Both the position numbers and the translations under genes were made by a program. Shown one piece after another: positions 7,966 to 59,504 of a DNA stretch of 64,000 nt. Below the pieces are notes generated by a model. The model did no database searches. It was not told the DNA's origin and was given only the letters and a program-made list of their open reading frames with translations. Each line of letters begins with the position of its first letter. The first letter of the stretch is position 1. This DNA is from a virus: positions 1 through 64,000 of IMG/VR virus record IMGVR_UViG_3300015242_000023. One strand, written 5' to 3'.

Positions 7966-9288
7966 CTACTTCCGCACCCTGGTCCCAGATGCGCCATTGT
8001 AGGTCGCGACGTGGTTATCCTTGACCTCAGTGTTGCTGGGCGCCGGCACGTTGGCTGGCGCGTCCAAGATGAACTTGCTCAGACCCGAGCTCGGCAGACC
8101 GAAGTTGTTCACAGGGATATCCCCCGTGGACATCTCGTTGGCGTAGATCACCGTCCCATAGCCGGGGCCGTCCAACTTGAAGAGGCTCTGGCCTGTGTTC
8201 TCGCCATTGTTGAAGGCGCCCACCCGGAGCCCCTGCGGCGCATAGATGCCGTACTGACTGTTCTGGATGAACGAGCCCATGATGATGTTGTGGCTGTAGC
8301 CGGTGTTGATTCCGGACCCGCCGTTGCGGCTCATGTTCGGAGCGATGCCGAAGACGTTGGACATGATCGCCCCGCCTAGGCTCTGGGCCAGCATGCCGTC
8401 CTTGCGCATGTTTTCGGCGTGCAGGTTGATGTGGCTGAACTCAAACACCGCGCCTTCAAAAATGAAACCGTATTCGGCATAGCTCGTGTAGATGTTCTGG
8501 AGGGTCGGCTTGTAGATATCCATGGCCGTGCCGCCTTGGGCCCGGATGCGGAGGCAGGCGCCGGCCGGGGGCCGATCATAGCCGCCGCCGTACAGTTGGA
8601 AGTTCATCAGGACGAAACCGCGGTTGGCAACGCCGGTCACGCCTTCAAAGCGGAACATGTCCTGACCGCCGGCGCCCACCCAGTTGATCTGCGCCCAACT
8701 GCCGTCGATGCCCCACACCTCGCCGCCGTGTTCGGTCTGGCGGAAGACGATGGTCTGGTCGATGTCGATCACCGTGCCAGGCGCCAGCGTGATCACCGTC
8801 CGGGTCGATGCTGCGGCATTGGCCAGCGCCTGCAACTGTGGCGTGGTCGTGGGCTTAGGCAACATGCCGCCCATAATGTTGATCACCGTTCCCCCGCCGC
8901 CCGTGCCGGGGACGCCTTGGATGCCCTGATCGCCCTTGTCCCCCTTCGGACCAGCCGCTCCGGTAGCTCCGGGCGCGCCCTGAATGCCTTGCAGCCCCGC
9001 GTGGCCCTGAGCCCCCGCCGGTCCCGTCGGCCCCTGTGGGCCCGTTCCTGAGCCGCCAGTGCCGCTTCCTGCCGGACCCTGCGGTCCCTGTGGCCCGGTC
9101 ACTCCCTGTGGACCCTGCGGACCGGGAGGTCCCTGCGTGCCGCCGCCGGGCGGCGGCTCTACCTCGGGCGAGTCCACCGTGTAGGTCCCCAGATCATCCC
9201 ATCCGTCTCCCCGCAGAAAGAACAACATCGACGCCGTTTCCGTGTTCAGCACCGTCTTGCCGTTGATGATCAGCTTGACAGTGGTCAT
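7966..9288 (-). CDS. Tail fibre/spike protein: collagen-like stalk plus beta-helix, 440 aa
   Basis: Residues 1-45 form a small beta domain, residues about 50-134 are Gly-X-Y collagen-like repeats ([10 protein letters not shown] style, rich in Pro and Gln), and the remainder is a repeat-rich beta protein. The stretch from about 180 to 420 reads like right-handed beta-helix coils with many Asn/Gly turns. This is the layout of a host-binding spike or fibre. It lies apart from the main tail cluster, alone on the minus strand. The GPQ-type repeats differ from the Thr-rich repeats at 38 and 40 kb. Confidence 0.8.
8885..9145 (-). repeat. Collagen-coding Gly-X-Y repeat tract
   Basis: Tandem 9-nt units encoding Gly-Pro-Gln and related triplets in the stalk of the tail fibre gene. 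Internal repetition makes this a likely site of length variation. Confidence 0.7.
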
Positions 9289-9402
9289 CGGCGTAGCTCC
9301 TCGTTGGGGGCCTCACTATAACCTGTGCATGGCTCGGTGAATATCGGGGACAACCGACCAGGCACGAGGCCGTTGCGCGACCGAAGCAATAAGCATATTA
9401 TT

Positions 9403-9434
9403 GAAACAACAAACGGCCCCCGCGAGGGAGCCGT
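9403..9434 (-). terminator. Intrinsic terminator on the minus strand
   Basis: On the minus strand ACGGCTCCC pairs with GGGGGCCGT (9 bp, one G-T pair) around a TCGC loop and is followed by TTTGTTGTTT. It lies 115 nt upstream of the tail fibre gene, so it closes a transcript other than that gene: most likely the structured RNA to its right. Confidence 0.6.
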
Positions 9435-9590
9435 CTGAGTGCTGAAGGACCTTGACGGGTCCAGAAAGCAGTTGGGATGTAGCCGCATCCCGTGGAGCGA
9501 AGATAATCGCTCCCGGTGTCCGAGACAACCCAATCCGTCTGTTGGTTATTTGCGTCCGGCTATCTTTACCGAGGTGAAAGCCCTCGGGTT
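9404..9590 (-). ncRNA. Candidate structured non-coding RNA
   Basis: Reading the minus strand from about 9590 down, five stems follow one another: CCGAGG/CCTCGG (9569-9587), AACC-AA/TTGGTT (near 9527-9548), the perfect 7-bp GGAGCGA/TCGCTCC (9494-9513), GGGATG/CATCCC (9474-9491) and GGACC/GGTCC (9447-9462). They end in the intrinsic terminator at 9403-9434. No convincing protein lies here on either strand. The 5' end and promoter are not defined, and no known RNA family was recognised. Confidence 0.45.
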
Positions 9591-9809
9591 TGTCGGCCTT
9601 CCAGTGGTTGCCGTCCTGCACGCTGGATTATGCCATGGGGAGCGGGGATCTTCGGGTTCTGGGCCTACGGGCTTCCATGGGAGAAGTGGCGCAAGTGGAT
9701 CATGAGGGGCCTGCGGGTTGGGTGCCATGCCTTATCCACAGTCAGCTTGGGTTGCGGGCAATCACTAAATGCCCCGCTCCCAAGAAATCAATCATGGTCA
9801 GATTCATGA
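9591..9809. other. Stretch without a confident gene
   Basis: Between the structured RNA and the next plus-strand gene I see only short, weak reading frames. One, from ATG 9630, encodes a hydrophobic Trp-rich peptide but has no ribosome binding site. Any promoter for the minus-strand RNA should lie here; no clear consensus is visible. Confidence 0.4.
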
Positions 9810-9836
9810 GCATCCTCTCTTGGATAGAGAGGATGC
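9810..9836. other. Perfect 10-bp inverted repeat before plus-strand gene
   Basis: GCATCCTCTC and GAGAGGATGC flank a 7-nt loop, 17 nt before the ATG at 9854. There is no U-tract. It may be an operator or an mRNA leader hairpin regulating the downstream gene. Confidence 0.5.
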
Positions 9837-9853: not shown

Positions 9854-10201
9854 ATGGGCAGGTTTCATCGCAAGATAAGGATACTGGCGAAAACCGAATG
9901 GCCGGTATTTGTGCGAATGCACGAGACGGATAATCCCATACCTGTTGACCCGCGCTCGTTTTATCCGTGGGCATTGGCTCAACCAAAGCCAGAGCGGTAC
10001 AGGCTGTTCGCTGTGTTTCGGGAGTTCGTCATGTCCGAGCGATACTCGCGAACGGTGATGGCGGAAGGCGCGTATTACCATAGCCTTGATGGAGTCGTGA
10101 CGCGCCCGGTGCCTGATGTATCGATCAAGAATGCGCGTCGGAACATCGAAAATATCGACCAGTTTCGCGCAAGCAGGCCACTTGGAGGGAGCCATGGCTA
10201 A
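9854..10201 (+). CDS. Hypothetical protein, 115 aa
   Basis: Start chosen at MGRFHRKIRILAKTEW, which has GGGAG 8 nt upstream; earlier in-frame ATGs fall within the hairpin or lack a site. Basic N-terminus and aromatic-rich centre (SFYPWALAQPKPERYRLF). It heads the 9.8-12.3 kb rightward operon. No family recognised. Confidence 0.6.
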   Translation: MGRFHRKIRILAKTEWPVFVRMHETDNPIPVDPRSFYPWALAQPKPERYRLFAVFREFVMSERYSRTVMAEGAYYHSLDGVVTRPVPDVSIKNARRNIENIDQFRASRPLGGSHG

Positions 10202-10631
10202 AAACGAGAAGACGAGCGCGCGCGTTGCGAAGATCGCGGCCAAGGTACTGGCGGTGGACATCAATCAGTTTCCCGATCAACCGCACTCGCCGATCAATCC
10301 GGCGCATGTGGATGTCATGGTGCTAATTGGGCAGTCGCATTCGACGGGCTTGAAGTGGTCCGACATCCGCGCACTCGCCGCCTCGGCGCTCACCCAGACG
10401 CCGGACAAGCGCGATATCGAAGCCGCTCGAAAGTATCTCTACAACGACCTCGGATTCGATCCGCGCGACGGCGGAAAGGTTGGTCGAGCGACGCACAACG
10501 CAATGGGCGATCGCATCAAGCCGAGGAAGATTCTGCCGCCCAAGGCCAAGTGTGTCTTGTCGGCGCGCATCAAGTCGAAGCGCCCGAGCTCATGGCCGCC
10601 ATCGGCTAAACCGGGAAGGAACTCACCGTGA
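10194..10631 (+). CDS. Hypothetical basic protein, 145 aa
   Basis: Start at MAKNEKTSARVAKIAAK, with a strong GGAGGGAG upstream. Lys/Ala-rich start, then a globular part (LKWSDIRALAASALTQTPDKRDIEAA written in pieces along residues 60-90) and a basic tail. Could bind DNA; it precedes the replication-like gene. Confidence 0.6.
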   Translation: MAKNEKTSARVAKIAAKVLAVDINQFPDQPHSPINPAHVDVMVLIGQSHSTGLKWSDIRALAASALTQTPDKRDIEAARKYLYNDLGFDPRDGGKVGRATHNAMGDRIKPRKILPPKAKCVLSARIKSKRPSSWPPSAKPGRNSP

Positions 10632-10837
10632 CGCCCTATGATCTGATCGACATAGAGGTTTGGCTCCATCATGAAAGTCACGCAGGAAACGAGAACGCCG
10701 GCGCCTATCTGGTGTCCACGGATCACAAACACAAAACCTGGGTGCCCAAAGTGGCCTGCCAGTTGGAACTGACCAATGGCAACCGTGGTACGCTCACTCT
10801 GACAGAAAACTTGGCGGTCGAGCGAGGTTTGGTGTGA
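10628..10837 (+). CDS. Small hypothetical protein, 69 aa, GTG start
   Basis: GTGA overlap with the upstream stop. The product starts with VTPYDLIDIEVWLHHE and looks like a compact beta domain. Translationally coupled on both sides; no function recognised. Confidence 0.6.
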   Translation: MTPYDLIDIEVWLHHESHAGNENAGAYLVSTDHKHKTWVPKVACQLELTNGNRGTLTLTENLAVERGLV

Positions 10838-11718
10838 TGGCCAAGAATGCCCCAACACTATTTGCCGATGAAGAACTGGCCCCAATGCCGGAAAAGCTCT
10901 GCACCGATGCCCTGGCGGTGTGGAACGAGATTGCACCGGGCGCCAGTTGGCCAGAAGCCCGGTTCCTGACGCAATCCCGGCGGACGGCGATGCGGAGGGC
11001 CATAAAAGACTATGGCGGCTTGGTGGGCTGGAAAGAGCACTTAGCGAGGGCCGCGACCAGCGACTTCCTGACCGGGAAATCCCCCCGCGGCGAGCAGCAC
11101 AAGGACTGGCGCCCCGATCTGGACTGGTTCTTGAAACCGGCCAATGTGGTGAAAATCCTTGAAAACAAATTCAGCGGCAAAGGACCGGCCAAATCGTCGG
11201 TATTCGCGAACGCCAAGCCGCAGGGCATCGACTGGCGCGGGACGCTCGAAAGGTACAAGCCTCGAGGCTTCTGGCACAAGGACACGATGGGGCCGCGGCC
11301 AGAAGAGTCAGGCCCGCACAAGGTCCCAGCCGATATGATCGAGGCGTGGCGAAAGAAGCATGGCATCACGGGCGTGCAGGCCCCGACTGAGACCCGCGAG
11401 CAGCGGCTGGCGGCGTCGATCGCCACGTTCCGCCGTCTAGGGGATTACGCGCGGGCAAATGCGGCAGAGGAGCAACTGGCGGCGCTCCAGGGACGGCCGC
11501 CCGAGCTGGTCCCAGCTCCCGACGCTCGCAACCCTGATGTAGTACCTCCCAAGATGCCGTCTAATAAGGGTTATTCTGGCCACACTGCCAAAAACGGCGG
11601 AAATTATTCCAAATCTATGCAGCGATCCGAGGCCGAGATAACCCGCGCCATGGCCGCCGCTCAGGACGCGGCGTGGGAAGATATACCCGAGGGCGAAAAC
11701 TACGGGCGCGACGAGTGA
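10837..11718 (+). CDS. Replication-initiator/organiser-like protein, 293 aa
   Basis: The ATG overlaps the previous stop by one base (TGATG). A central segment (about residues 70-110) contains FLTGKSPRG, DWRPDLDWFLKP and ANVVKILE. The KADFDWFLKPANxxKILEG pattern is typical of the C-terminal region of phage replisome organiser (lambda O-like or DnaD-like) proteins. The C-terminus is Pro/Asn-rich and disordered. It would load the host helicase at the phage origin. No iteron array was seen in or near the gene. Confidence 0.55.
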   Translation: MAKNAPTLFADEELAPMPEKLCTDALAVWNEIAPGASWPEARFLTQSRRTAMRRAIKDYGGLVGWKEHLARAATSDFLTGKSPRGEQHKDWRPDLDWFLKPANVVKILENKFSGKGPAKSSVFANAKPQGIDWRGTLERYKPRGFWHKDTMGPRPEESGPHKVPADMIEAWRKKHGITGVQAPTETREQRLAASIATFRRLGDYARANAAEEQLAALQGRPPELVPAPDARNPDVVPPKMPSNKGYSGHTAKNGGNYSKSMQRSEAEITRAMAAAQDAAWEDIPEGENYGRDE

Positions 11719-12344
11719 AGCCGCTGGATCGCTCGATGTTTCAAGCCTACCGAATTAGCAGCCTGATCGACGGCAAGGTGTATATCGGCATCACGTCGCG
11801 CTCGCTAAAGGCGAGGTGGGCCGAGCATCTCTATGAATCGCGTCGGAATCGTTCTCGGATGACGGTAACTTGGGCGATCGCCAAGCACGGCGCCGACAAT
11901 TTCCGCATTGAGCCGATTTGTTGCGCGCGCTCATGGGATGACATATGCGCAGCCGAACAGGCGCTCATCGAGCAACATGGCTGCACCGCGCCCGCTGGTT
12001 ACAATCTGCGGAAAGGCGGCGATGGTGCCTTCGGCCGCAAGCCAACTGCCGAGGCCATAGAGCGATCGGCAGCAAAGCACCGTGGCCTTCCGTGCCATCC
12101 CAACACGCGATCTGCATCGTCGCGCACTCACAAGGGCGTCAAGAAATCCCCTGCGCATCGTGCTCGGATTGCTGCGGCCAGGCGAGGCATAGCCAGGAGC
12201 GAAGAGACTAAGGAAAAGCTGCGAGCCTATTGGGCCGCACGTAGGGCTGCGGGCGAGTTCAAAACGGCCAAGCCATACGCTCACGCCAAAATCCCGCTAG
12301 CGCTCAGCCAACATATCGCAGCGACCTACCGGCCGCGCTTCTAG
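11715..12344 (+). CDS. GIY-YIG homing endonuclease with NUMOD3 motifs, 209 aa
   Basis: Start taken as the GTG overlapping the upstream stop (GTGA). The N-terminus has the GIY-YIG pattern (AYRISSLIDGKVYIGIT), then a conserved Arg (LKARWAEHL) and Glu (AAEQALIEQHG). The C-terminal half carries NUMOD3-like DNA-binding repeats (SAAKHRGL, RIAAARRGIARSEETKEKLR). Enzymes of this kind cut intronless or empty sites and spread themselves. It forms the end of the operon, converging with the small minus operon. I see no intron around it, so it is free-standing. Confidence 0.85.
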   Translation: MKPLDRSMFQAYRISSLIDGKVYIGITSRSLKARWAEHLYESRRNRSRMTVTWAIAKHGADNFRIEPICCARSWDDICAAEQALIEQHGCTAPAGYNLRKGGDGAFGRKPTAEAIERSAAKHRGLPCHPNTRSASSRTHKGVKKSPAHRARIAAARRGIARSEETKEKLRAYWAARRAAGEFKTAKPYAHAKIPLALSQHIAATYRPRF

Positions 12345-16169: not shown

Positions 16170-16381
16170 TCGGCGGCATCACCGAGCCGCCGCGCCGTTA
16201 TCTCGAACATGAATGGCATTGGCTTCACAGCGAGCGCGCATCCCGACCGGTGATCTCACAATGGATCAAGGGCGGTTGGTATAGCCCGGGTGAGCACGGC
16301 CCGATTTCCCCGCAGGAGATGTGGCGCCGCGGTTGGGCCTATCTGGGGCCTGTTCCAGTACCGCCAGGAGATTGGGGATGA
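16166..16381 (+). CDS. Small Trp-rich protein, 71 aa
   Basis: ATGA overlap. Seven tryptophans, many Pro, e.g. HEWHWLHSERASRP and WYSPGEHGPISPQEMW. Its stop overlaps the hldE start. Unknown function. Confidence 0.6.
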   Translation: MIGGITEPPRRYLEHEWHWLHSERASRPVISQWIKGGWYSPGEHGPISPQEMWRRGWAYLGPVPVPPGDWG

Positions 16382-17664
16382 TCGATTTCAGCAACGCGCG
16401 CGTCGCCGTCGTGGGCGACCTGATCGAGGACCATTGGATTTACGGCCGCGTCGATCGGCTGTCGCCCGAGGGGCCGTGGCCAGTGTTCCTGCCGGAGCGA
16501 ACGGTCGTGCAGATGGGCGGCGCGGCGAATGTGGCCGCCAACATGTACGCGCTGGGTGTGACGCCAGTGCAGATCGCCCCGAACCGAATGGCGATCAAGG
16601 AACGCTATGTCGTCGGCCGGCACCAGATGTTCCGCGTCGACCGGGAAAACACATCGAACATTTCGAGCCAGGAGATGATCCGCCTATTCATCGCTCTCAC
16701 GGAGGGCACCCAACAGCCGAATGTCGTGGTGCTGAGCGATTACGGGAAAGGCTGCTTTGGTGGCACCTTGGCGCAGTGCATCATTGAATGGTGCATGCCC
16801 CGCGGCATCGTCACCGTCGTCGATCCTAAGGGAACCGATTGGACCAAGTACGACGGTGCCACCGTCATTACGCCGAACTATGCCGAGTGGAAGGCCCATC
16901 AGCGCGGCGGCCGCGCGCGTCTGCTCGTGACCAAGGGTGAGCACGGCATAGAACTGCAGGGTGATGGCAGCGACGGCAGGCATTGGATCAACATCCCCGC
17001 TGCCGGCCCGAAGGTGGTCGATATCGTCGGCGCCGGCGACGTGGTCGTTGCTGCGCTCGCCCTGGCGTTGGGTGCAGGCTATTCCATGGAAGAAGCAGCC
17101 CGCATCGCCAACGCCGCAGCCGGTGTCGCCGTAGGCAAGCCCGGCACGTCTGTGTGCACGATCGACGAACTGAGAGGTGCTTGGGTAAGCGGGTGTAGCT
17201 CAGCGGTAGAGCAGCGGTCTCCAAAACCGACGACGGGGGTTCGAGTCCCTCCGCCCGCGCCACTCGTTGGAATCGCCAACGGCTGTTTCGACACCCTGCA
17301 TGCCGGCCACGTCGAGCTCCTGCAGAAGGCAAGGGCGCGCTGCGACCGACTGATAGTCGCCATCAATAGCGATGCATCGACGCGACACCTAAAGGGCCCT
17401 CTGCGGCCGGTAAATCCAATGGCTGTGCGCTGCGCCATGCTCCAGGCATTGGCATGCGTCGGTGAGGTCCGCGTCTACGATCAGGAGGAGGATCTGGTCG
17501 ACATCATCAAGGAGGTAGGGGCCTCGGTGATCTTCAAGGGCGTCGACTACGAGGGCCACCCCACCATCACCGGCAGCGATATCGCCCGCGTCGAGATCAT
17601 CAAGACCGAGTTCAAATCGTCCACCGCGCAGGAAGTCTGCAAGGCTCGAGGAGTTTGGTCTTGA
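16378..17664 (+). CDS. hldE: HldE: heptose-7-phosphate kinase / heptose-1-phosphate adenylyltransferase, 428 aa, with in-frame tRNA
   Basis: Bifunctional enzyme of ADP-heptose synthesis. Residues 1-268 are a PfkB/ribokinase-type kinase: QMGGAANVAANMYALG near 45-60 and the anion-hole motif DIVGAGD with GAGD at 218-221. Residues 297-428 are the nucleotidyltransferase: GCFDTLHAGH with HAGH at 308-311, then AINSDAS and GPLRPVNP. Compared with E. coli HldE (about 477 aa) the shortening is mainly in the linker. Residues 271-295 are encoded by a complete tRNA-Trp gene read in frame. No usable start codon lies between the tRNA and the HAGH motif, so both domains need one uninterrupted message. Start at 16378 by TGATG/ATGA coupling. 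Confidence 0.85.
   Translation: MIDFSNARVAVVGDLIEDHWIYGRVDRLSPEGPWPVFLPERTVVQMGGAANVAANMYALGVTPVQIAPNRMAIKERYVVGRHQMFRVDRENTSNISSQEMIRLFIALTEGTQQPNVVVLSDYGKGCFGGTLAQCIIEWCMPRGIVTVVDPKGTDWTKYDGATVITPNYAEWKAHQRGGRARLLVTKGEHGIELQGDGSDGRHWINIPAAGPKVVDIVGAGDVVVAALALALGAGYSMEEAARIANAAAGVAVGKPGTSVCTIDELRGAWVSGCSSAVEQRSPKPTTGVRVPPPAPLVGIANGCFDTLHAGHVELLQKARARCDRLIVAINSDASTRHLKGPLRPVNPMAVRCAMLQALACVGEVRVYDQEEDLVDIIKEVGASVIFKGVDYEGHPTITGSDIARVEIIKTEFKSSTAQEVCKARGVWS
17189..17262 (+). tRNA. tRNA-Trp (CCA anticodon), inside hldE
   Basis: Full cloverleaf. The acceptor stem GCGGGTG/CGCCCGC has 7 pairs including one T-G. The D arm is GCTC/GAGC. The anticodon stem is GCGGT/ACCGA, with one G-A mismatch at the outer pair, and its loop CTCCAAA holds anticodon CCA at 17221-17223. 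The T arm is GGGGG/CCCTC with loop TTCGAGT. The discriminator is G and CCA is encoded at 17260-17262. U33 is present. It lies on the same strand and in the reading frame of hldE, in the linker between its two domains. Confidence 0.9.
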
Positions 17665-46146: not shown

Positions 46147-47061
46147 TCACGAAGTGGGGAAGATGCCGTAGATAGCACGGGGGTTATAATACCCAAAGCT
46201 GTACCGAGCATACCCCTTCACGAGGAGGTTGTCCGTGGTGAAGTCGACCTGCATGTCGGTCTCGAAGGGGATGCGATCCATGTATGAGAGGCCGTCGATG
46301 TTGGTGAGGAGGAACCACGCGAAGGCCGAGGTCAGGTAGTCGTTCGTCATGTACGACTCGGGCAGGCCGCCCGCGGTCGTGTGGATGGCGTTGACGTCGT
46401 TGTCGGCGGTGCCGGGCCGCAACTCGGTCTTCAGCAGGCGGATGGCAACGGGCTCGAGCTGCGGCGGGATCAGCAGCTTGCGCGCCCGGGCGTACATCTT
46501 GAGGCCGGCCTGGTCGCGGAAGTTGGTGCGGACCGAGATCATCGAGTTGAGCAGCGTGGCCTCGTTCAGGCCCACTTGCGTCGTCGGCGTGTTGGCGTAG
46601 GTGCCGCCGTCGATCGGATGGGCCGGCGAGCACAGCGCCACGCCGTCGCCGCCGATCGCGTTGATGTAGGTGGTCGCGGTGTTGAGGAGGTTCGCGCCGA
46701 AGATTTCCTTGGTCTGCTGGAAGCTCTCGAGCAGGCCGAGATTGGCGGGATGGAACTGGGTCTTGTAGAGGTTGTCGTCGATGGCCTTGCGGGTCATCGC
46801 ATAGCCAAGAGCAATCTCGGTGTGCTCCTGGTTGTAGACGTACCGCTCGCCGGCCTGGTTGTCGAAAGAGGTCTGGCCGCCTTCGGTCTTGAGCTGCGCC
46901 AGCCCTAGGTAACGCATTTCGGCGGTGCGCTCCAACGCCATGTTGGATGTGTGCCGCGTGTAGATGCGATCGTACTGGGGCGGGATCTGTTCGTACTTCC
47001 CGGTCACCCCACGGAGGCCGGGGAGGAGCAGATCCTTGATCTGGGCGAGATTGACGGCCAT
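46147..47061 (-). CDS. Major capsid protein, Mu gpT-like, 304 aa
   Basis: Likely major head protein: DRIYTRHTSNMALERTAEMR, YVYNQEHTEIALGYAMTRKA, FGANLLNTATTYINAIGGDG, VALCSPAHPIDGGTYANTP and FETDMQVDFTTDNLLVKGYA. The order of a helical start, AMTRKAIDD..Y, the SxxHP loop and a terminal strand is typical of Mu-like gpT capsid proteins. About 300 aa, the usual size. Follows a decoration-type gene and has scaffold and portal genes behind it. Confidence 0.8.
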   Translation of the reverse strand: MAVNLAQIKDLLLPGLRGVTGKYEQIPPQYDRIYTRHTSNMALERTAEMRYLGLAQLKTEGGQTSFDNQAGERYVYNQEHTEIALGYAMTRKAIDDNLYKTQFHPANLGLLESFQQTKEIFGANLLNTATTYINAIGGDGVALCSPAHPIDGGTYANTPTTQVGLNEATLLNSMISVRTNFRDQAGLKMYARARKLLIPPQLEPVAIRLLKTELRPGTADNDVNAIHTTAGGLPESYMTNDYLTSAFAWFLLTNIDGLSYMDRIPFETDMQVDFTTDNLLVKGYARYSFGYYNPRAIYGIFPTS

Positions 47062-50977: not shown

Positions 50978-51838
50978 TCACCCTACGCGCTCCTGTAACT
51001 TGATCTTCTGCAGCCGGCCCTCACCGCTGCCGGCGCCTGCCGTCATGCCACCGCTGGCGCGCTTGCTGCGCTTCTGGAGCGCGATCTTTTCGAGACGGCC
51101 CTCACCCCCGCCTGCACCATAGTGCATCACCGGGCCGCCATCCTTGCGTCCCATGGGCATCGGCGGACCTCCTGGCGGCATCGGCGGCGGCCCACCCGGA
51201 GGCGGACCACCAGCCATCGGTCCGGGAGGAGGCATTGGCGGCGGCATCGGCTTGATCGGTCCCTGCGGGCCTTGCTGCATCGGATCGGGCTTCGGCCCAC
51301 CGCCGGCGATCACGATGTTGATCGTCGCAGCCTTGCCGCCGTTCTTGCGCGCAGCACGACCGCCCTTCTTGTAGCCGCCCGTGTGATACGAGCCAAAAGC
51401 CGCCTTGTTCGCGCCGGCCGTGTCGATCGTGCTCTCAGCGCCGGGCGTGTCGGCTCGGCCTCCATCGGCGCGCTTGCTGCGCCACGTCGCATAGTTGCGC
51501 GCATATTGGTCCTTCTCCGAATTGCTCATGGCATCGGAGTCTGATGTTAATTTTGCAGCAACAGTCTTTACGGTATCCCCGTAGGCTTTTGATCCGACGC
51601 GCACCTTGCGATCGGCCCGCTGCGGCCCGCGGTCCTTCTGGATCGCGACAGGACCGCCGTGGTTTCGGTAGATGCGGGGACGGACCGGGCGCGCTCCGGT
51701 CTTGCGATCGGCGTTCAGGGCCTCGGTGGGCTCCCACGAGCTGCCGTCCACGCGCTTGTGCGGATCATTGCTCGTGCTCGTCAGACGAATTGCCTTGGCC
51801 CGCATGTCTGCGCGGGCCTTTTTGCTCATCTCTGACAT
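50978..51838 (-). CDS. Basic disordered head-cluster protein with GGRAARKNGG motif, 286 aa
   Basis: Helical basic N-terminus (MSEMSKKARADMRAKAIRLT), then long low-complexity regions: Gly/Pro/Met-rich (residues 195-235) and KKGGRAARKNGGKAAT plus RKDGGPV and SKRASGGMTAGAG. Same Gly-rich basic motif seen in the ejection proteins and the 127-aa protein. Possibly a capsid-internal or DNA-binding protein. Confidence 0.6.
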   Translation of the reverse strand: MSEMSKKARADMRAKAIRLTSTSNDPHKRVDGSSWEPTEALNADRKTGARPVRPRIYRNHGGPVAIQKDRGPQRADRKVRVGSKAYGDTVKTVAAKLTSDSDAMSNSEKDQYARNYATWRSKRADGGRADTPGAESTIDTAGANKAAFGSYHTGGYKKGGRAARKNGGKAATINIVIAGGGPKPDPMQQGPQGPIKPMPPPMPPPGPMAGGPPPGGPPPMPPGGPPMPMGRKDGGPVMHYGAGGGEGRLEKIALQKRSKRASGGMTAGAGSGEGRLQKIKLQERVG

Positions 51839-51897
51839 GCGACGGTGCTCCGCTCAGGTTGAGGGAGCACCGTTTTATCACCGCATAACGGATAAGG

Positions 51898-56726: not shown

Positions 56727-59504
56727 CTAACCTGGGTACAGCGGGCCTGGTGGTTTGCCCTTGTGCTGCATCTGCTCCTCAGCCTCGGCCATCCGCTCCT
56801 CCCCACGCACCAAGATCCCTGTGTCGCGAAGGTAGCGAAGCGCCTGCGATGTCGTGTCCGTCAAATCATCCCGTCGCGCATTCGGAAATGTACCACATTC
56901 TGCAATCACCGCCTCGGCGAACGGCCGGTCCGGCGCATAGACCATCCGCTCCTCAAAGATGTTCTGGACCGAATATAGCCTCGCCACCTTGCTGTTCTTG
57001 GTGTAGCCGCCGCCGGCGATCGGCCGCATCACCCGGATCCCGTAGTTCGCCCTGGTCGCGAACAGTCTCCGCAGCTCCTGAGCAACCGAAATGCCCGCCG
57101 CCTTGTCCTCGATCAGCAGTACGTCGACCTTGAACTGCTGGCACGTCTTATGGACACGGTTCACCAAGTCGTGGATCTCAAGATGGTCGCTCCACGAATG
57201 GCACAGCATCACCCGGTTGGATGTCTCGACGTAGGCCCGCTGGAACACGCCCGGCGCCGTCTGCACATGCTGGGCCACGACATCTCCTTGGAAGACGCCC
57301 CACACTGTCAACGCCGACGGGTCGTTCAGCGTGTTCTCGGTGTAGGCCGTGTCCAAGCTGGCCACGAGATATTCCATCGGCGGGTACTGGAGCTGATACC
57401 GCGGTTGCTGCGTCACCGGGTCCAGCTCTTCCCCGCCAGGCGGCCACAACTGCCACCAGTCACGCTTGATGATGCCGCCGCCGGCCGGCTCAGGACGTTG
57501 CTCTAATTGGCCCGCTGCACGCCACGCTTTCAGGCTACGCTCAAGAGCCTTCACCTCAGCCTCAGGGAAGCGCTCAGGGAAGAGCAATTCGCCCTCTTTG
57601 GTGCGCGGATCATTCCAACCGATCGACGTGACGAACGAGCGCGTTTTCTCGTAGTGCATTGGGAGGCAGAGATGCTGCCATCTCTCGGGCTCTTTGGCGA
57701 GAATATGCCCAGACAAATCTAGTTCGCCTAGGCGCTGTTGTACGGCGACGATTGCACCAGTCCTCGGATCATTCAGACGCGTCGACATAGCGCCATCCCA
57801 CCAGTCCTCGTTTGTCGATTGGATGATCGCTTCTGATAGAACCTCACGAGCGTTGTTCGCGTCATCCACAATTATGACGGAAGCGCCCTCGCCTGTGACT
57901 CCGGCTTCAACCGCAGTGATCAGCGATTCGCCGCCTTCGCTGTTGCTGAAGCGAACCTTTTGGTCCTGCTCCGGCAGGATGTGAAAGCGATCACCCCACT
58001 TGCGGCGATACCACGTTGACTTCATCAACCGGCGCCGTTTCACGCTGTCTCTGATCGCAAGCGAATAGGCGTATGACGCATGAAGGAAGGGAACACCTGG
58101 GCCGCTCGTGGGACCGCGAAACGATTGCGCCCACACCCAGGCCGGAAACGCCACAGAGACGATCGAAGAATTATGGACCGCAAAACCATTGGCGACGAAG
58201 CTGTGATCTTCATCAACTGTCAGGCAGATGCACTCTGCAGTCCCTGCGTCTTCGATATTCTCCACCACATCGCCGACAACAAGATGGTCAAAGTCGAAAC
58301 GGCGACGTCGCGCGAATGCCAAGCGGTCGTTTTTCTTGTGATGAATGTCGATGAGATTTGCGAATCGCCAGCAATTATCCTGATCGGAAATAGACAGCGA
58401 ATAGGATGTGTACGTATCCCCTTGTATCTTGGTCTTAATGGCCGACGTTTTCTGGCGAAGAATAGAATCAATTCCCAAGCGCAACAGAAGCGTCTGCATT
58501 TGGAGCAAGAAAGCCTTGTTTACGCTGTCACATCCAATGTGGAGATCATCCCGCTGTGAGCCGTTTCTTTTAGCTCCTTTAAATGAGACAAATCCATCGC
58601 AGGCCCAAAATGCACCGATGAAGTGTTGCGCAATTTCATTTGTCCCCTCAAGGACAGCCTGCGGAATCATCTTGGTGTAGGAATTTCCTCCCCACAGCTT
58701 ATGTCTTTCCATGAACTTACGAACGGGACCGACATCATTCTTATTCGGCCGCCTCATTGTTCCCGGGAGCGCACGCAGAGCAATGCGGCGCAAAATACCG
58801 CCCGTCTTTGCCATTTCATAGGCTTGATCAGTTCCCTGAAATCCCGCTGCGCTTATCACCAAGTGAATGTCAGTGGCCTCAATATCATCCGCCACTGTGA
58901 TGTTCGGTGTCCCCTGACAATTTCCGTCTCCAATCAAATAGCCCAATAGTCTCGCCACTTCCGGCGTGATGGAGGGCGATCCGCTAGAGCCCCTTTGTGG
59001 GATCAATCCAATTACATCTTCTTTGGAAATACTCTGAAGTTCAGTCCATCCCATTGGAGTGAGGAAGGGATGATCTGGCGCGGCAACAATCTCACGACCG
59101 CGCCTCGTTTTAAGATGGAGGACGGGAATCACCCCCTGCTTGTGTATCTCCGTCACACGACGAAAGCGCGCCAAGTGAGTAAGGACATGCTCCCCTTCGC
59201 GGACATGCCTCAATTCAACGAGACCACGCTCATAGGTGGAAACAAGAGTGTCCGCCGATACGGGTTTGCCCATTCTTGGCGGGATATTTATCAGCAGCCG
59301 TTTGATCTCGCCATCAGCTACGGCCTCGAGATGTTCGGCCAAGGCATCAATCACCCAACCATGCACGTACGGCGCCGGGTCGATGAACCTCCAAGCGTAT
59401 CGCAGGAAGGTCGCCAAGCTCTCCTCGCACTCGACACGCTCCAGCTCGTTCAAATGCCAGTCGGCGTCGATCCGCGAGCCTTCGTATTCAATCAGAGTCG
59501 GCAT
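56727..59504 (-). CDS. terL: Terminase large subunit interrupted by an intein, 925 aa (560 aa after splicing)
   Basis: Packaging ATPase and nuclease. Residues 1-80 are the N-extein ending NIPPRMGK. Residues 81-445 are the intein. The C-extein restarts SSIVSVAFPAWVWAQ, so that splicing rebuilds the Walker A motif PPRMGKSS. Walker B is VIIVDDAN near 543. The C-terminal nuclease has SLDTAYTENT near 714 and LLIEDKAAG near 797, the acidic residues of the RNase H-like site. Without splicing the ATPase loop is broken, so activity depends on protein splicing. Start at 59504 overlaps the upstream stop by one base. Confidence 0.9.
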   Translation of the reverse strand: MPTLIEYEGSRIDADWHLNELERVECEESLATFLRYAWRFIDPAPYVHGWVIDALAEHLEAVADGEIKRLLINIPPRMGKPVSADTLVSTYERGLVELRHVREGEHVLTHLARFRRVTEIHKQGVIPVLHLKTRRGREIVAAPDHPFLTPMGWTELQSISKEDVIGLIPQRGSSGSPSITPEVARLLGYLIGDGNCQGTPNITVADDIEATDIHLVISAAGFQGTDQAYEMAKTGGILRRIALRALPGTMRRPNKNDVGPVRKFMERHKLWGGNSYTKMIPQAVLEGTNEIAQHFIGAFWACDGFVSFKGAKRNGSQRDDLHIGCDSVNKAFLLQMQTLLLRLGIDSILRQKTSAIKTKIQGDTYTSYSLSISDQDNCWRFANLIDIHHKKNDRLAFARRRRFDFDHLVVGDVVENIEDAGTAECICLTVDEDHSFVANGFAVHNSSIVSVAFPAWVWAQSFRGPTSGPGVPFLHASYAYSLAIRDSVKRRRLMKSTWYRRKWGDRFHILPEQDQKVRFSNSEGGESLITAVEAGVTGEGASVIIVDDANNAREVLSEAIIQSTNEDWWDGAMSTRLNDPRTGAIVAVQQRLGELDLSGHILAKEPERWQHLCLPMHYEKTRSFVTSIGWNDPRTKEGELLFPERFPEAEVKALERSLKAWRAAGQLEQRPEPAGGGIIKRDWWQLWPPGGEELDPVTQQPRYQLQYPPMEYLVASLDTAYTENTLNDPSALTVWGVFQGDVVAQHVQTAPGVFQRAYVETSNRVMLCHSWSDHLEIHDLVNRVHKTCQQFKVDVLLIEDKAAGISVAQELRRLFATRANYGIRVMRPIAGGGYTKNSKVARLYSVQNIFEERMVYAPDRPFAEAVIAECGTFPNARRDDLTDTTSQALRYLRDTGILVRGEERMAEAEEQMQHKGKPPGPLYPG
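58170..59264 (-). mobile_element. Class-3-like intein with LAGLIDADG endonuclease in TerL Walker A
   Basis: Residues 81-445 (365 aa). Block A is PVSADTLVSTYERG with Pro as the first residue instead of Cys/Ser. Block B is APDHPFLTPMGW, with His and Trp153. Block F/G is CICLTVDEDHSFVANG ending FAVHN, with Cys427 where class 1 inteins have Asp. The first C-extein residue is Ser446. The homing endonuclease domain shows two LAGLIDADG motifs, LLGYLIGDGNC (about 187-196) and FIGAFWACDGFVS (about 295-307), so it may home into intein-free terminase genes. Confidence 0.85.

Follow-up and report, generated by a model that had tools for sequence, protein, structure and literature searches.

Small RNAs with a promoter and a terminator of their own are already known from phages. 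The OOP RNA of lambda is a very short transcript that begins at a dedicated promoter and stops at a dedicated terminator hairpin (pO-oop-tO), and the oop-pO sequence bears a LexA site (PMC5869508, PMC3985674). It lies beside the replication genes, runs against the transcript by which they are expressed, and overlaps a cII-like gene at the 3' end of that gene. RNA I of ColE1, a 108-nt RNA of three stem-loops, makes a kissing-loop contact with RNA II, the sense RNA that it overlaps (PMC9978351). For the phage-encoded small RNAs VpdS, DicF, 24B_1, and STnc6030, both transcripts and functions have been shown (PMC12197685). Here, we describe a further candidate, at positions 9404-9493, known from sequence alone. 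The best reading of this locus is a predicted orphan phage small RNA that is probably antisense to the leader of a replication operon. Because phage small RNAs of such build are already on record, the interest of this one is modest until a transcript is shown, and at present it stands as a reasonable candidate that brings no new principle. If true, it would supply one more, independent example in which a small RNA controls the replication module, here in a non-model phage, and it would indicate that such control can be phage specific and fast evolving and, hence, escape homology-based RNA searches.

The window, that is, the whole stretch of DNA analyzed, comprises 64,000 nucleotides (positions 1 to 64,000) of the IMG/VR phage record IMGVR_UViG_3300015242_000023, which has 69,807 bases in all. 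The leftward structural module of this phage (~20-60 kb) has relatives in many contigs and in GenBank MW202675, mostly at ~45-80% protein identity. In searches with the replication, fiber, and portal proteins, from which this comparison of the arms was made, the relatives of the left arm (1-20 kb) in the collections searched were contigs of the same phage only, bar weak matches to replication-protein domains. The stretch of interest, 9404-9590, sits within this left arm, in an intergenic space of ~560 bases. On one side is the leftward tail fiber gene (7966-9288, minus strand) with its collagen-like repeats; it lies downstream on the same strand, just as the original prediction had placed it. 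On the other side are rightward overlapping ORFs (9854-10201, 10194-10631, 10628-10837, and 10834-11718, plus strand), which have ribosome-binding sites and matches to PHROG 19658, 345, and 10469, and from whose overlaps we infer a single rightward replication operon. The protein encoded at 10834-11718 matches replication-initiation and helicase-loader families in PHROGs. The first ORF, 9854-10201, displays a weak coding bias and was retained because it has a ribosome-binding site and overlaps the next gene. Directly 3' of the replication-initiator-like gene lies a GIY-YIG homing endonuclease gene (11727-12344). Between 9289 and ~9850, a coding signal is absent in every frame, in keeping with the earlier claim that 9404-9590 holds no plausible protein.

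That prediction had also described consecutive stems on the minus strand leading to an intrinsic terminator. Five hairpins are indeed present if the terminator is counted, but they are not strictly consecutive, as ~55 nt of weakly structured sequence separate H1 from H3. H1 (9569-9587, minus strand) is a perfect 6-bp palindrome that probably falls outside the transcript, and H3 (9494-9513) is a perfect 7-bp palindrome, GGAGCGA-N6-TCGCTCC. These are followed on the minus strand by H4 (9474-9491), a perfect 6-bp stem that closes the loop CGGCUA and lies at the RNA's predicted 5' end; by H5 (9440-9470), with 5+4 bp around an internal loop and an apical loop CGUCAA; and by the terminator H6 (9410-9437). 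The minimum free energy of 9404-9590 on this strand is -81.2 kcal/mol versus -60.0 +/- 4.2 in dinucleotide shuffles (n=200; z -5.1, none as low), which makes it the second by folding z among 1,484 windows of the phage genome, and it folds better on the minus than on the plus strand. The count of perfect hairpins taken alone is not exceptional here and, being not distinctive for 9404-9590, was dropped as a significance test. The excess structure is concentrated in 9404-9513. The segment 9404-9493 by itself has a folding energy of -43.2 kcal/mol (z -4.3), below that of every shuffle, and even when the terminator is removed (9438-9493) a z of -3.1 is retained on the minus strand, with the plus strand folding equally well (z -4.0). 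By comparison, the part upstream of H3 (9514-9590) is barely better than its shuffles (z -1.25).

The terminator claimed earlier for the minus strand is borne out by H6, which combines a 12-bp stem containing two G-U pairs, a 4-nt loop, and the tail TTGTTTCAAT. It is the strongest terminator-like site in 5-15 kb and the second strongest intergenic one genome-wide, and both its G-U pairs and its T-tract favor the minus strand. The nearest called minus-strand gene upstream is 2.9 kb away, so that H6 serves no upstream gene, as is expected of a terminator that belongs to a small-RNA gene. Such a terminator would also keep transcription of the small RNA out of the fiber gene.

Promoters were called by a sigma-70 weight-matrix scan, using an approximate E. 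coli-style matrix that may not be that of the host; many of its top-scoring sites fall inside genes, and several others just upstream of genes. By this matrix, the best promoter-like site of the region lies on the minus strand at 9500-9528 and ranks 8 of ~140,000 positions. It has the form TTGTCT-N17-TATCTT, with the -35 element at 9528-9523, a 17-bp spacer, and the -10 element at 9505-9500, and a consensus-based promoter search, at its threshold, returned no promoter in the region. The predicted start, A9493, is 6 nt past the -10 box and two bases ahead of the H4 stem, at the very beginning of the folded unit. The loop of H3 overlaps the -10 box. Since only nine distinct intergenic perfect palindromes of >=7 bp, H3 included, occur in 12 kb, we estimate the chance of this overlap at ~2%, and H3 is probably an operator around the -10 box rather than an RNA hairpin. 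An opposing promoter-like site (9373-9401, plus strand; -35 TTGCGC, N17, -10 TATTAT at 9396-9401; rank 50) is the best plus-strand site upstream of the replication ORFs, with a predicted start at ~9408; chance alone would place ~0.2 such sites on this strand of the intergenic space. Its -10 box is enclosed by a 6-bp palindrome (9387-9403), so that palindromes surround both opposed -10 boxes. A third site precedes the fiber gene (minus strand, rank 46), with -35 TATTCA, 17 bp, and -10 TATAGT at 9320-9315, just before the ribosome-binding site, and may drive that gene without any upstream RNA. Elsewhere in the intergenic space, a perfect 11-bp palindrome (9810-9836, GCATCCTCTCT-N5-AGAGAGGATGC) stands just before ORF 9854 and is a possible operator.

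Because H3 coincides with the promoter-like site and the sequence farther upstream is not clearly more structured than its shuffles, the RNA is best taken to consist of H4, H5, and H6, that is, ~90 nt at 9404-9493 on the minus strand, with its 5' end set by the promoter-like site. Thus, the discrete structured RNA of the original prediction remains the best reading in view of the folding z, the terminator, and the non-coding status, although as a unit that is probably ~90 nt long and not one of five hairpins. That a discrete small non-coding RNA exists at this spot appears to us somewhat likelier than its absence. Under the mechanism we propose, it would be transcribed from ~9493 to ~9404 under a sigma-70-type promoter of its own, and the -10 box of this promoter would lie inside H3, the probable operator. 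The rightward transcript would begin at ~9408 and extend into the replication operon (9854-11718), and the small RNA would be perfectly complementary to the first ~85 nt of its leader. The replication operon would then be dampened, either because the two RNAs pair or because the opposing polymerases collide, in the manner of lambda OOP/pO and of RNA I. The fold, the terminator, the lack of coding signal, and the position of the locus are direct observations, and the promoters, the transcript ends, and the antisense action are predictions. Taken as a whole, the proposal of a ~90-nt RNA with its own promoter acting antisense on the operon leader is tentative, and we would put it at somewhat less than an even chance. 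A more specific version, in which the antisense RNA would be phage specific, have no sequence relationship to either OOP or RNA I, and tune the replication operon via loop-loop contacts, with both opposed promoters in operator palindromes, is doubtful as a joint claim.

The predicted RNA would resemble lambda OOP in being very short, in having both a promoter and a terminator hairpin to itself, and in its position beside replication genes, opposed to the transcript that would feed them. A regulatory element at the promoter would be a further point of likeness, with a palindrome around the -10 box here and a LexA site in oop-pO. The H3 palindrome is unlike both the E. coli LexA box and the direct-repeat LexA box of alphaproteobacteria. 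No sequence similarity to OOP was found in the 9404-9493 RNA, and the overlap differs too: the predicted RNA would overlap the 5' leader of the operon, whereas OOP overlaps the 3' end of a gene. With RNA I it would share a size of ~100 nt and the three stem-loops; however, it has no Rfam match, and its proposed sense partner is an operon leader and not a primer. Like VpdS, DicF, 24B_1, and STnc6030, it is phage encoded and non-coding, although predicted rather than demonstrated. Unlike STnc6030, which lies antisense to a tailspike gene, the RNA described here is not antisense to the fiber gene.

Homology searches are consistent with an orphan. Rfam covariance models gave no match to 9404-9590, and none of the 50,697 phage and 72,556 plasmid records searched by blastn yielded a meaningful one. 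Degenerate patterns run against IMG/VR and genome contigs retrieved either the same phage or matches unsupported by the covariance model; three of the pattern matches were inspected, and these had no model match, look like chance, and are apparently inside genes. A covariance model built from the single sequence found no match in 57 related records, many of them fragments, and none in 591 kb from longer relatives and the remainder of the record. The sole match anywhere searched was an identical one in a contig of the same phage (3300012924_000016). No covarying homologues, as would mark a conserved family, were recovered from these collections, which are incomplete, with a model whose single-sequence origin limits its reach.

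Several other explanations draw on the same observations. The original prediction had spoken of a regulatory or decoy RNA, and it is the regulatory role, in its antisense form, that we prefer; trans action of the ~90-nt unit (9404-9493) on mRNAs of the host or the phage, or a role as a protein-binding decoy, is kept as an unlikely rival. The evidence of promoter, fold, and terminator applies to it equally, and almost every base of the unit is paired save for short loops and linkers, an arrangement that suits loop recognition or protein binding. Nevertheless, the starts of the phage genes hold no significant target, with the best duplex energy inside the shuffled range, and Rfam contains nothing similar. 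We regard as quite improbable a longer structured RNA of 190-350 nt, which would start upstream of H1 and form pseudoknots between a 5' linker and the hairpin loops. Although the linker UAGCCG is the exact complement of the H4 loop, its neighbors in the linker are able to pair with loop bases of H3 and H5, and weaker minus-strand promoter-like sites occur at 9627-9632 and 9764-9769, we estimate that ~6% of cases would show a 6-nt match to one or other of three loops. Such an RNA is also at odds with the poor folding of the part upstream once H3 is left out and with the coincidence of H3 with the best promoter-like site.

The palindromes themselves (9387-9403, 9494-9513, 9569-9587, and 9810-9836) could instead point to a regulatory or replication-origin region operating at the DNA level, in which they would bind proteins and the terminator would merely stop stray leftward transcription. 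The adjoining replication operon and the good folding on both strands agree with this; yet the G-U pairs and the T-tract of the terminator favor the minus strand, and we found neither iteron-like direct repeats nor a clear GC-skew switch, making this explanation very improbable in our estimation. As for the earlier suggestion that the RNA is a leader of the fiber gene upon read-through, it is rendered less likely by the strength of the terminator and by the fiber promoter-like site at 9315-9320. Its attenuator version, in which the linker CAACAGACGG would pair with the 3' arm of the terminator such that the latter is bypassed, is the least probable of the rivals. The fiber gene is the next gene on the strand, and a 10-bp alternative helix can indeed form between 9544-9535 and 9416-9407, but a helix of this length has an estimated ~15% likelihood of arising by chance somewhere in 187 nt, and one of its arms lies outside the ~90-nt transcript that we prefer.

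Some features elsewhere in the phage were also recorded. The most structured minus-strand window of the genome is 51701-51887 (z -5.6), which contains plus-strand terminator-like hairpins at 51797-51818 and 51842-51873, with the 3 kb upstream free of called plus-strand genes; it may be a further small RNA or a terminator acting in both directions. A tRNA gene (17189-17259, plus strand) lies inside ORF 16321-17664, the two halves of which look like the kinase domain and the nucleotidyltransferase domain of an HldE-like protein of heptose synthesis. Near-identical 248-aa proteins are encoded at both ends of the record (879-1625 and record positions 68453-69199), along with a second similar neighbor gene, which suggests a duplication or a diverged end redundancy. 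The terminase large-subunit ORF (56727-59504) encodes 925 aa, relatives align over ~485 aa, and the additional residues, which end in ...VHN before S, have the look of an intein. In IMG/VR, at least 583 sequences are related to the major capsid protein (gene at 46147-47061), and this capsid type is therefore very common in environmental samples.
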